A stretch of DNA of 64,000 nt from Amnibacterium flavum. GTDB lineage: Bacteria > Actinomycetota > Actinomycetes > Actinomycetales > Microbacteriaceae. Below, piece by piece: positions 54,482 to 58,232 of this stretch. The stretch's first letter is position 1, and each line of letters begins with the position of its first letter. Below the pieces are notes generated by a model, which worked only from the letters and a program-made list of their open reading frames with translations, made no database searches and was not told the origin of the DNA. The stretch lies in the NCBI RefSeq assembly GCF_003097495.1, contig NZ_QEOP01000002.1, positions 1,116,001 to 1,180,000 on the forward strand, given 5' to 3'. The translations under genes were made by a program, and so were the position numbers.

Positions 54482-54589
54482 TCCCTTTCCCCACCCCATC
54501 CGATCTCCGGGGCAGTTCCCAGCGTTCACGCCAAGGCTGTGGAAGTGGAGCGTCCCGGGACGCACGCACGACAAAGGAGTTACTCCACC

Positions 54590-56104
54590 ATGACCGAATA
54601 CATCGTCGCCATCGACCAGGGCACCACCAGCACGAGGGCCATCGTCTTCGACCACTCGGGATCCATCGTCTCCGTGGGACAGAAGGAGCACGAGCAGATC
54701 TTCCCCAAGGCCGGATGGGTCGAGCACGACCCCGCCGAGATCTGGGCCAATACCCGTGAGGTGATCGGCCAGGCGCTGTCCAAGGCCGACATCACCCGCC
54801 ACGACGTCAAGGGCGTCGGCATCACCAACCAGCGCGAGACCACCGTGGTCTGGGACAAGAACACCGGGGAGCCCGTCTACAACGCGATCGTCTGGCAGGA
54901 CACCCGCACCCAGTCCATCGTCGACCGGTTCGCCACCGACGGCGGTGTCGAGCGATTCAAGGACACCGTCGGACTCCCCCTGTCCACGTACTTCGCGGGC
55001 ACGAAGATCGTCTGGATCCTAGAGAACGTCGACGGAGCCCGCGAGAAGGCCGAGGCGGGCGACCTGCTGTTCGGCACCACCGACACCTGGGTCCTCTGGA
55101 ACCTGACCGGCGGCACCGACGGCGGCGTCCACGTCACCGACGTGACCAACGCCTCCCGCACCCTGTTCATGGATCTGAAGACGCTGCAGTGGGATGACAG
55201 CATCCTCGAGGTGTTCGGAGTGCCGAAGTCGATGCTCCCCGAGATCAAGAGCTCGTCCGAGGTGTACGGCACCGTCGAGTCGTCCAACCTGCTGCGCGAG
55301 GTGCCGATCGCGGGCATCCTCGGCGACCAGCAAGCGGCCACCTTCGGGCAGGCCGCGTTCGACCCCGGCGAGGCGAAGAACACCTACGGCACCGGTAACT
55401 TCCTGATCTTCAACACGGGCACCGAGATCGTGAAGAGCGACAACGGTCTGCTCACGACGCTGGGCTACAAGCTCGGCGACGAAGAGCCGCACTACGCGCT
55501 CGAGGGTTCGATCGCCGTCACCGGTTCGCTCATCCAGTGGCTGCGCGACAACCTCGGGATCATCAAGTCGGCACCCGAGATCGAGGAGCTGGCGAAGACG
55601 GTCGAGAACAACGGCGGCGCCTACTTCGTGCCCGCGTTCTCGGGCCTGTTCGCGCCGTACTGGCGTTCCGATGCCCGCGGCGCGCTCGTCGGACTCACCC
55701 GGTACGTGAACAAGGGGCACATCGCGCGCGCGGCGCTGGAGGCGACAGCGTTCCAGACCAAGGAGGTCCTCGATGCGGTGAACGCCGACTCGGGCGTCCC
55801 GCTGGAGGAGCTGAAGGTCGACGGCGGAATGATCGCAAACGATCTGCTCATGCAGTTCCAGGCCGACATCCTCGGGGTTCCCGTCGTCCGGCCCGAGGTC
55901 GCCGAGACCACCGCACTCGGTGCAGCGTACGCCGCCGGCCTCGCGGTCGGCTTCTGGGAGAACCTCGACGACCTGCGCGCGAACTGGCAGGAGAACAAGC
56001 GCTGGACCCCGTCGATGGACGAGGCCGAGCGCGAGCGCACCTACCGCCTGTGGAAGAAGGCCGTGACGAAGACCTTCGACTGGGTCGACGAGGACGTCAA
56101 CTGA
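54590..56104 (+). CDS. glpK: Glycerol kinase GlpK
   Basis: A 504-residue FGGY kinase that phosphorylates glycerol to glycerol-3-phosphate. The start [20 protein letters not shown], then [17 protein letters not shown] and the ATP site [13 protein letters not shown], and the C-terminal [20 protein letters not shown] are all typical. Full length. ATG 54590 has an AAAGGAG ribosome-binding site. The gene follows glpF after a terminator and ends 12 nt before the first of two matching hairpins flanking a DUF559-type gene. Confidence 0.97.
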
Positions 56105-56116
56105 CACGACGCCGCT

Positions 56117-56172
56117 GAGTTGCCCAGTTCCGCCCACTCCCGAGCCGGGAGATGGGCGGAACTGGGCAACTC
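56117..56172. repeat. 56-nt palindromic element, left copy
   Basis: GAGTTGCCCAGTTCCGCCCA (56117-56136) and TGGGCGGAACTGGGCAACTC (56153-56172) are perfect 20-bp complements; the middle CTCCC/GGGAG can stack with one bulged A. The same element, equal in length and nearly equal in sequence, lies at 57124-57179 on the other side of the DUF559 gene. Confidence 0.9.
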
Positions 56173-56231
56173 GCATTCGAGGCCTGTGGATAGGTCGCCT
56201 GGGTACCCCCGGCCGGTGTCACTCTTGCCGC

Positions 56232-57125
56232 ATGAAACGGCCCGAACGCCTTCCACCCGAGCTCGCCGGCTCGTCTTTCACCACCCGCGCGGGCGCCGTG
56301 TCTGGACTGTCACCCAAAAGGCTCCGAGCGCGCGATCTCGACAAGCACATCTGGGGTGTCAGATCGGCTGGTGCCATCGCGACGCTCGATCAGCGCGCGC
56401 GCATGATGCTGCTGAGGATGCCGCCGAGCGCATTCGTGAGCCATCTCACTGCTGCAGTCCTGCACCGACTGCCGACGCCTCCGGCATCCTTCTCCTCTCA
56501 CGACGCCGTCGACATATCTGTCCCGGCCCCGGAGAGGGCGCCCCACGCAACCGGCATTCGAGGCCATCGGCTCACGCTGTTCCCGGGCGATGTGCAGGCC
56601 GCGGACGGCATCCGGATCACAAGTCCCGTCCGCACCTGGTTCGATCTCGGGGCATCCTTGAGGATCGAGGATCTCGTCGCAATCGGCGACCACCTGATCG
56701 CGACGCCTGGCGGTCCCAGTCGGGAGGACCTCGCCGGGACCATCGCGTCGCATCGTGGTGAACGGGGCGTACGTCGCCTCGCGTTGGCGAGTCGGATGTT
56801 GACCCCTCGTTCGGAATCGCCGCAGGAATCCCGTCTTCGCGCGCTGATCATGATGGGCGGACTTCCCGAGCCGAGCGTCAACAGGGTCATCACCGACGGG
56901 CTGGGGCGGTTCGTCGCTCGCGCCGACCTGGTGATCGAGGAGTACCGCCTGGTGATCGAGTACCAGGGGGACTACCACCGAGACAAGGCGCAATGGCGAC
57001 GAGACATGTCGCGACGGTCACGAATCGAAGCCGAGGGCTGGACCGTCGTCGAGATCGTCGCGGACGATCTCTGCGACCCGGACGAACTGCTGGCACGCTT
57101 CCGGAAGCTCGCCCGGATGCGCTGA
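56232..57125 (+). CDS. DUF559-type endonuclease-like protein with AbiEi-like N-terminus
   Basis: A 297-residue protein. The N-terminal third (GAVSGLSPKRLRARDLDKHI...) looks like the winged-helix region of AbiEi-type antitoxins, and the last 110 residues are a Vsr/DUF559-like nuclease fold: ESPQESRLRALIMMGG, then ARADLVIEEYRLVIEYQGDY with Asp and Glu/Gln at the expected PD-(D/E)xK positions, and YHRDKAQWRRDMSRR. This combination is common in actinobacteria and uncharacterised. It is flanked by two matching palindromes; its stop TGA overlaps the second one. Its codons are less GC-biased than neighbours, consistent with mobility. Confidence 0.8.
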   Translation: MKRPERLPPELAGSSFTTRAGAVSGLSPKRLRARDLDKHIWGVRSAGAIATLDQRARMMLLRMPPSAFVSHLTAAVLHRLPTPPASFSSHDAVDISVPAPERAPHATGIRGHRLTLFPGDVQAADGIRITSPVRTWFDLGASLRIEDLVAIGDHLIATPGGPSREDLAGTIASHRGERGVRRLALASRMLTPRSESPQESRLRALIMMGGLPEPSVNRVITDGLGRFVARADLVIEEYRLVIEYQGDYHRDKAQWRRDMSRRSRIEAEGWTVVEIVADDLCDPDELLARFRKLARMR

Positions 57126-57179
57126 GTTGCCCAGTTCTGCCCACTCGGGCCGGATTTAGTGGGCCGAACTGGGCAACTC
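57124..57179. repeat. 56-nt palindromic element, right copy
   Basis: GAGTTGCCCAGTTCTGCCCA plus CT (57124-57145) pairs with AG plus TGGGCCGAACTGGGCAACTC (57158-57179), 22 bp with one mismatch and a loop CGGGCCGGATTT. It matches the left copy in both arms and in length. It begins within the DUF559 stop codon and supplies the last seven codons and the TAA of trpD on the other strand. Confidence 0.9.
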
Positions 57180-58232
57180 GGGGGTCTTCGTGGCCGTGAC
57201 CCAGGCGTCGAGCTTGGCGGACGCCGCCCCACTGTCGATAGCGGCCGCGGCACGGGACAGGTTGAGGGAGAGGCGCTCGAGCAGCGAGATGTCGGCGAGG
57301 GTCGCGTCGCGCGAGAGCTCCCAGGCGACGAGGCCCGCCGCGGCGTTGAGGAGGACGATGTCGCGCACGGGCCCCTCGTCGCCGTCCAGCACCCGACGGA
57401 GCGCGGCGGCGTTCTCGTCCGGGGTGCCGCCGACGAGGTCCGACAGCGACGAGCGGCGGATGCCGAGCTCGCGCGGGTCGAGATCATGCTCGGTCACGGA
57501 TCCCCCCGACACCTCCCAGAGGTGGCTGTGGCCGGTCGTGGTCAGCTCGTCGAGACCGTCGTCGCCGCGGAACACGAGGGCTGTCGCACCACGCGTCTGG
57601 AACACACCGACGATGAGCGGCACGACCTCGGGCCGCGCCACCCCGACAGCGCTCGCCTCGGGACGGGCCGGGTTGCACAGCGGCCCCAGGAAGTTGAAGA
57701 CCGTCGGCACTCCGAGCTCCCCGCGGACGGGCCCGGCGTGGCGGAACCCGGGGTGGAAAGCGGCGGCGTAGACGAACGTGATCCCGACCTCGTCGAGCAC
57801 GCGGGCGACCGCCTCGGGGCTGAGGGTCAGATCGACGCCGAGAGCAGACAGCACATCGCTCGAACCGGACGCCGAGCTGGCTGCTCGGTTGCCGTGCTTG
57901 ACCACCGGAGCACCGCTCGCTGCCGCGACGATCGACGCCGCGGTGGAGATGTTGACCGTCTTCAGCCGGTCTCCGCCGGTGCCGACGATGTCGAGCACGT
58001 GGGAGTCCACCTGAAGGGGGATCGCGTGGTCGAGGATCGCATCGCGGAAGCCGACGATCTCATCGACCGTCTCGCCCTTCGCCCGCAGCGCGACGAGGAA
58101 TCCGGCCAGCTGGGCGGGCGACGCCTCCCCCGTCATGACCCGTTCCATCGCCCACGTCGAGTCCGCGATGGAGAGGCTGTTCCCGTCGAGGAGCGAGCCG
58201 ATGACAGTGGGCCAGGTGGGCGATTCGAACAC
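57156..58232 (-). CDS. trpD: Anthranilate phosphoribosyltransferase TrpD
   Basis: A 358-residue enzyme that joins anthranilate and PRPP in tryptophan synthesis. [20 protein letters not shown] is the conserved PRPP loop, with [17 protein letters not shown] and [15 protein letters not shown] 58232 follows TAGGAT (58239-58244 on the minus strand) by 6 nt, a predicted leaderless start. The last residues (ELPSSAH) and stop come from the adjacent palindrome. Other trp genes are absent. The trpD-ctaE-qcrCAB grouping matches mycobacteria. Confidence 0.95.

Follow-up and report, generated by a model that had tools for sequence, protein, structure and literature searches.

The window analysed here is a stretch of 64,000 nucleotides of the Amnibacterium flavum genome (contig NZ_QEOP01000002.1, positions 1,116,001 to 1,180,000), in which a gene for a putative nuclease is located between glpK and trpD and is enclosed by two palindromes. 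The features of the locus, in window coordinates, are:

54539-56104, plus strand: glpK (FGGY kinase), left neighbour, by Pfam family match; context
56117-56172, no strand: left palindrome (REP-like element), 56 nt, 20-nt arms, 100% complementary; same family as the dispersed copies
56232-57125, plus strand: AbiEi-like/DUF559 (Vsr-type PD-(D/E)XK) protein, 297 aa, by Pfam and PADLOC; AlphaFold model with pLDDT 95.6 and pTM 0.91
56403-56657, plus strand: region of the best AbiEi model, residues 58-142, putative palindrome-binding half; same model in 37 of 59 aligned members
56922-57095, plus strand: DUF559 domain, residues 231-288, with D232, E243, D247, H249 and D258, and E199 just upstream; nearest solved domain I-Bth0305I (3r3p)
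57124-57179, no strand: right palindrome, 56 nt, 22-nt arms, 95% complementary; overlaps the stops of the nuclease gene and trpD
57156-58232, minus strand: trpD (glycosyl transferase family 3), right neighbour, by Pfam family match; context

As the initial annotation had described, both palindromes are 56 nt long and enclose the gene at 56232-57125, and the stop codon of the gene overlaps the right copy: the GA of the TGA at 57123-57125 provides bases 1-2 of the palindrome. The loop of this right palindrome contains the trpD stop (TAA on the minus strand, 57156-57158), so that one element terminates two convergent ORFs. The flank-to-flank repeat score at the nuclease gene was 33.0, and 1893 placements of the same geometry elsewhere in the window gave a median of 11 and a maximum of 17.5; hence, bracketing of the gene by chance is excluded. 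The earlier account of the two copies was thus correct, but it overlooked both the dispersal of the palindromes and the differing repeats that accompany the sister genes. A known RNA was considered as a candidate for the 56000-57300 interval and rejected, since Rfam returned microRNA-hairpin matches only, far under their gathering scores. The assignment of the neighbours as glpK and trpD agrees with their family matches.

The nuclease/AbiEi-like character attributed to the gene was also confirmed. The C-terminus of the protein matched DUF559 with 24.3 bits (Pfam cut-off 20.6), with MTES_1575 below its own cut-off, and the PADLOC AbiEi models covered residues 58-191. No Y1 transposase domain was detected by Pfam, which reported DUF559/MTES_1575 instead. 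In an alignment of 59 sequences, that of the window included, R44, S196, E199, E243, Y244, G246, D247, H249 and D258 were invariant and D232 nearly so, a set of conserved residues that we take to be the expected PD-(D/E)XK core. A profile search of solved structures with the protein gave two matches, 3hrl and 3r3p, and the top Foldseek match of the model was again 3r3p, the homing endonuclease I-Bth0305I (probability 1.00, target TM 0.72), with a weak E-value of 0.012; no structure matched by Foldseek reached 0.001. The GC content at third codon positions (GC3) was 0.771 in the nuclease gene, compared with 0.935 in glpK and 0.902 in trpD.

The palindrome is not confined to the locus. The arm GAGTTGCCCAGTTC occurs in 15 exact copies in the 3.57-Mb genome and the reversed word in none; with up to two mismatches there were 66 genome matches against 9 for the reversed word. 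From 30 loci of this two-mismatch search, in which any arm spacing from 15 to 80 was accepted, 19 palindromes were recovered, 18 of them of 56 nt and one of 57, and 17 of the 19 lie away from the nuclease gene. The most similar pair (L006 and L019) is 96% alike, and the flanks of the two copies are only 20% and 44% identical over 25 nt, which indicates that the shared unit is the element itself. The base before the element is a pyrimidine and the base after it a purine in all 51 elements from five species, and among 41 aligned copies the start was GA in 41 and the end nearly always TC, although this consensus of the ends is partly ascertained because the copies were retrieved with a GAG-starting word. 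Among the 56-nt palindromes of the window genome a second type of inner arm was observed (GGCAGTG...CACTGCC, type B; e.g., L005, L009, L010, L028 and L029), with no partner protein identified; it may be left over from a nuclease that has since been lost. At L107, L028 and L002, adjacent 56-nt palindromes either bracket other genes (in L002 one that is transporter-like by eye) or are close together (L107). Copies in 400-kb genome samples were counted by blastn-short with whole palindromes, single 15-mer counts being too insensitive; at E 0.01 no copy was found in these samples for the motifs of L057, L043 and L048, nor for the palindromes of the window gene in its own sample.

All the elements located were intergenic: 40 of 40 targeted elements, after de-duplication, and 16 of 16 elements from 400-kb samples that are 83-89% coding, the two sets being partly the same and a gene overlap below 28 nt, as called by a home-made codon-usage gene finder, being taken as intergenic. 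The fifth sample, from genome G004, contained no element. Between convergent genes we found 22 of the 40 targeted elements, compared with 13 of the 68 junctions in the window. When the 41 copies were aligned as a 24-pair stem, 85.9% of the cells were paired (74.3 after shuffling), and the covariation of the stem was 0.317 against a shuffled mean of 0.127 (none of 500 shuffles as high) and a maximum of 0.112 for slid registers. Two-sided changes in 15 stem pairs gave a weaker signal (12.3 in the shuffled copies; 5 of 500 as high). The shuffle leaves the relatedness among the 41 copies in place, and the compensatory changes could also come from self-correction of the palindromes or from shared ancestry.

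These data can also be read in terms of regulation, the palindromes being sites where the AbiEi-like protein controls its own and other genes, or bidirectional terminators, with nothing mobile involved. Antitoxins of the AbiEi type bind to inverted repeats located at the promoter of their own gene, and in the loci with a flank score of at least 25 the chosen start lies a median of 70 nt downstream of the left repeat, which, together with the frequent location between convergent genes, fits such a role. In the same loci, the start of the right repeat precedes the end of the stop codon by a median of 2 nt. A copy at the 3′ end is, however, superfluous for autoregulation. Furthermore, neither window palindrome is followed by a T-tract on either strand, near-identical copies have only the 56 nt in common, the nuclease residues are conserved, and the presence and type of the element vary among species at one and the same site (see below), so that we regard this regulatory reading as unlikely.

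The window genome encodes three DUF559 genes and one remote homologue (L239), and the four genes examined have four different bracketing motifs. The repeats that enclose gene L031 are copies of TGCACGGATCAGGA, with 89 genome matches against 4 for the control, and gene L032 is enclosed by TCGCTCAGCAGGTGAA, with 142 matches against 72 for the control at up to three mismatches and 16 matches with at most one. L239 (G000:C1:97834-98397 plus flanks) is flanked by a 61-nt inverted repeat with one mismatch, which was found at 12 places in its own 400-kb sample, two of them the flanks of the gene itself, and at 6 with the reversed query; the counts for L032 and L239 thus carry high reversed controls. 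A repeat related to that of L239, at L237, gave 12 matches and none for the reversed control. L239 is a divergent AbiEi-plus-Vsr-like protein that no DUF559 model matches; among four proteins scanned, the winged-helix model AbiEi_4 scored above its Pfam cut-off in L239 and just under it in the other three. The L031-type elements are arrays of a 14-nt word, with two or three copies in one orientation followed by two or three inverted ones, mostly 18-30 nt apart (e.g., G000:C1:1483902-1484003 and C1:1209246-1209346), and their build is unlike that of the window-type element, which is one 56-nt palindrome. MTES_1575 has a fifth match in the genome (G000:C4:97565), which is located within a 1254-codon frame and was outside the four-gene comparison.

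Bracketing of the nuclease gene was also observed in relatives. In the genus, where 33 places were found and 30 loci analysed, the flank score exceeded the maximum of the 1893 random placements in 21 of the 30 and fell short in 9. Among 80 named relatives out of 371, with four loci that have cut flanks retained (L131, L179, L181 and L185), the score was at least 18 in 58 and lower in 22; the bracketed loci are mostly from Microbacteriaceae, but also from Pedococcus, Flexivirga and Isoptericola. The corresponding controls passed in 0.8% of 1500 mismatched flank pairs and, within the same loci, in 0.7% of 1361 placements at other positions. Phylum-wide, 24 of 40 loci (28 genomes), selected as stand-alone frames of 294-378 aa among the matches listed, passed the flank test and 16 did not, with 0 of 1500 for mismatched flanks. 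Even the remote homologues in the genus were bracketed in 14 of the 16 that had loci, 2 falling short, with 0 of 331 for placements elsewhere; their mismatched flanks passed in 14 of 240 cases, the strongest of which were pairs from different species (L239/L237 and L252/L244). Among 93 type-I loci, a total that counts seven genes twice because they belong to both the 80 and the 30, a palindrome scoring at least 14 was present to the left of the gene in 61 and to its right likewise in 61, with 46 loci having one on each side; of 170 control windows, 7 contained such a palindrome.

The bracketing motif varied with the protein. The motif was common to 5 of 5 locus pairs with at least 80% protein identity, to 6 of 20 at 60-80%, to 1 of 53 at 50-60%, to 1 of 70 at 45-50% and to 0 of 1505 below 45%, and the Mantel correlation between protein and motif was 0.18, with none of 1000 permutations as high. 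This set consisted of the 58 type-I loci, preselected by a flank score of at least 20, that remained once L177 and L178 had been taken out by hand. Protein and palindrome thus coevolve, and the covariation of arms and protein that the initial annotation had proposed to look for is present. At the glpK-trpD site itself, the orthologues of G002 (54% identity) and G001 (53%) have arms that are unlike those of the window and alike on both sides of each gene. With at most one mismatch, the window arm was found 28 times in its own genome, 60 times in G002, 35 in G005, 22 in G006, 4 in G007, 3 in G001 and once in G008, and it was absent from G003 and G004; the reversed control gave one match in all the genomes together. 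The arm matches listed for G002 and G005 were mostly the variants GAGCTGCCCAGTTC and GAGGTGCCCAGTTC.

This tracking is imperfect, since G005, with its 35 matches, encodes no homologue of the window protein closer than 45%, G006 (22 matches, in a genome that is 68% complete) has only remote homologues, and G001, with a 55% homologue, has just the 3 matches to the window motif. It could be argued that the palindromes are spread by a different enzyme (a RAYT or an IS transposase), and that the nuclease genes just sit where palindromes gather. The palindromes that lie far from any nuclease gene, and those of G005 and G006, which have no close homologue, are in keeping with such a passenger role, as is the ascription of REPs elsewhere to HUH RAYTs in the available text of PMC2817692. 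However, a passenger role leaves unexplained why each nuclease lineage has its own matching pair and why four genes of a single genome have four different ones, and we consider it very improbable.

The analysis of other genomes showed that the presence and the type of the element differ among species at two sites. The nuclease gene is present at the glpK-trpD junction of the window genome, G001 and G002, whereas in the same genus G003, G004 and G008 have an empty junction, as does G012 of another genus, so that the empty site that the initial annotation suggested looking for in relatives does exist; no glpK was found beside trpD in G005, and no trpD match in G006 and G007. The empty junctions of G003, G004 and G008 carry solitary repeats that look L032-like by eye. 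As regards a target-site duplication of the insertion-sequence or MITE kind, what was seen is the strict pyrimidine and purine edges of the 51 copies; filled and empty junctions were compared by eye only. At the era site, also inspected by eye and with G006 outside the comparison, the window genome, G005 and G004 each carry a palindrome of their own type and G008 a weaker L032-like repeat, and no palindrome was seen in G001, G002, G003 and G007.

The gene itself moves little, and the dispersed part is the palindromes. For 36 pairs of named loci with at least 60% protein identity, synteny was conserved on both sides in 24, on one side in 5 and on neither in 7, so that for the most part the gene does not behave as a module that moves freely; below 40% identity, 1875 of 1937 pairs share neither side. 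Homologues were found in 5 records of a plasmid collection and 2 of a phage collection, all of them distant. The suggestion of a discrete mobile module is supported in part, with dispersal seen for the palindromes but the gene mostly syntenic. As an alternative, the nuclease might home, i.e., cut the empty alleles of a single site (e.g., glpK-trpD), with repair then copying the whole cassette and the dispersed palindromes being by-products. The nearest solved domain is indeed that of a homing endonuclease, and the three filled and three empty junctions in the genus are in keeping with homing. Nevertheless, the location of 17 of 19 palindromes away from the gene and the scarce synteny between distant lineages speak against homing, which we judge improbable. 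Only the C-terminal domain matches the EDxHD/Vsr homing endonucleases, for which I-Bth0305I (PDB 3r3p) is the nearest profile and fold match, and unlike in those enzymes, no intron or intein was seen here and the gene lies between palindromes.

Two other known systems share parts of this protein. AbiE type IV toxin-antitoxins have in common with it the AbiEi-like region, for which the best PADLOC model recurs in 37 of the 59 members, but the neighbours here are glpK and trpD rather than an adjacent AbiEii nucleotidyltransferase toxin, and the fusion partner is a nuclease domain. Caulobacter VsrA also has a DUF559 domain and is described as a predicted Vsr-like endonuclease, which in the absence of the methyltransferase ScmA is required for a DNA damage response; the available text of that source mentions no palindromes for VsrA (PMC12907096).

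The closest parallel is that with RAYT/TnpA-REP and REP/REPIN systems. According to the accessible parts of the published descriptions, RAYTs are HUH/tyrosine enzymes related to IS200/IS605, canonical REPs have a GT(A/G)G foot, and the features shared with the present case include a pair of cognate palindromes at the flanks of the gene, many solitary copies outside genes, genomes with several distinct pairs, protein-repeat coevolution, orthologues that in some cases stay in place, and compensatory stem changes (PMC2817692, PMC3116915, PMC6006769). Here, by contrast, an AbiEi-like half is joined to a nuclease of the PD-(D/E)XK (Vsr) type, and in place of a GT(A/G)G foot the palindromes of this family have the ends Y-GA...TC-R (which are partly ascertained); since both the HUH enzyme and the foot are missing, the system does not qualify as a RAYT system. 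As to the plan (cognate flanks, solitary copies, coevolution and empty sites), the parallel with REP-associated transposases drawn in the initial annotation is apt, but it does not extend to the gene, which is mostly syntenic. Hairpins are widespread without a DUF559 neighbour, an observation that the initial annotation would have counted against its reading; yet it is no refutation, because the same holds for REPs and their RAYT.

By analogy, the DUF559-palindrome system appears to work like a RAYT/REP system. The locus is probably a single unit within a system of the REP type, where the nuclease recognises and spreads its own palindrome and each lineage has its own palindrome that coevolves with the protein. 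We infer that the nuclease binds, cuts and mobilises the palindrome and is itself the enzyme that spreads it. The protein, composed of the AbiEi-like half and the Vsr-fold (DUF559) nuclease domain, would recognise its 56-nt palindrome, and nicking or cutting there may allow intergenic copies of it to be made or maintained, often between convergent genes. Each nuclease lineage would use a palindrome of its own, with protein and palindrome changing together, and a PD-(D/E)XK nuclease similar to Vsr and homing endonucleases would fill the role that the HUH transposase RAYT has elsewhere. It is moderately likely that the AbiEi-Vsr/DUF559 nucleases constitute an independently evolved REP-mobilising class across Actinomycetota, so that REP-type parasites (or partners) would have arisen at least twice from unrelated nucleases. 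An open-access literature search, which covered titles and the starts of abstracts and had most subscription journals outside its scope, revealed no paper that connects dispersed palindromes with DUF559, Vsr or AbiEi proteins.

The available text of the literature (PMC2817692, PMC3116915, PMC6006769) associates repeated extragenic palindromes with a single enzyme family, the HUH RAYTs. If our reading is true, a second such family would exist, whose catalytic fold is unrelated to that of the RAYTs, and the REP lifestyle would have evolved more than once. It would also give a likely role to many genes that are now labelled 'DUF559', explain the species-specific palindromes of actinobacterial genomes, and provide many natural protein-palindrome pairs for reading DNA recognition.
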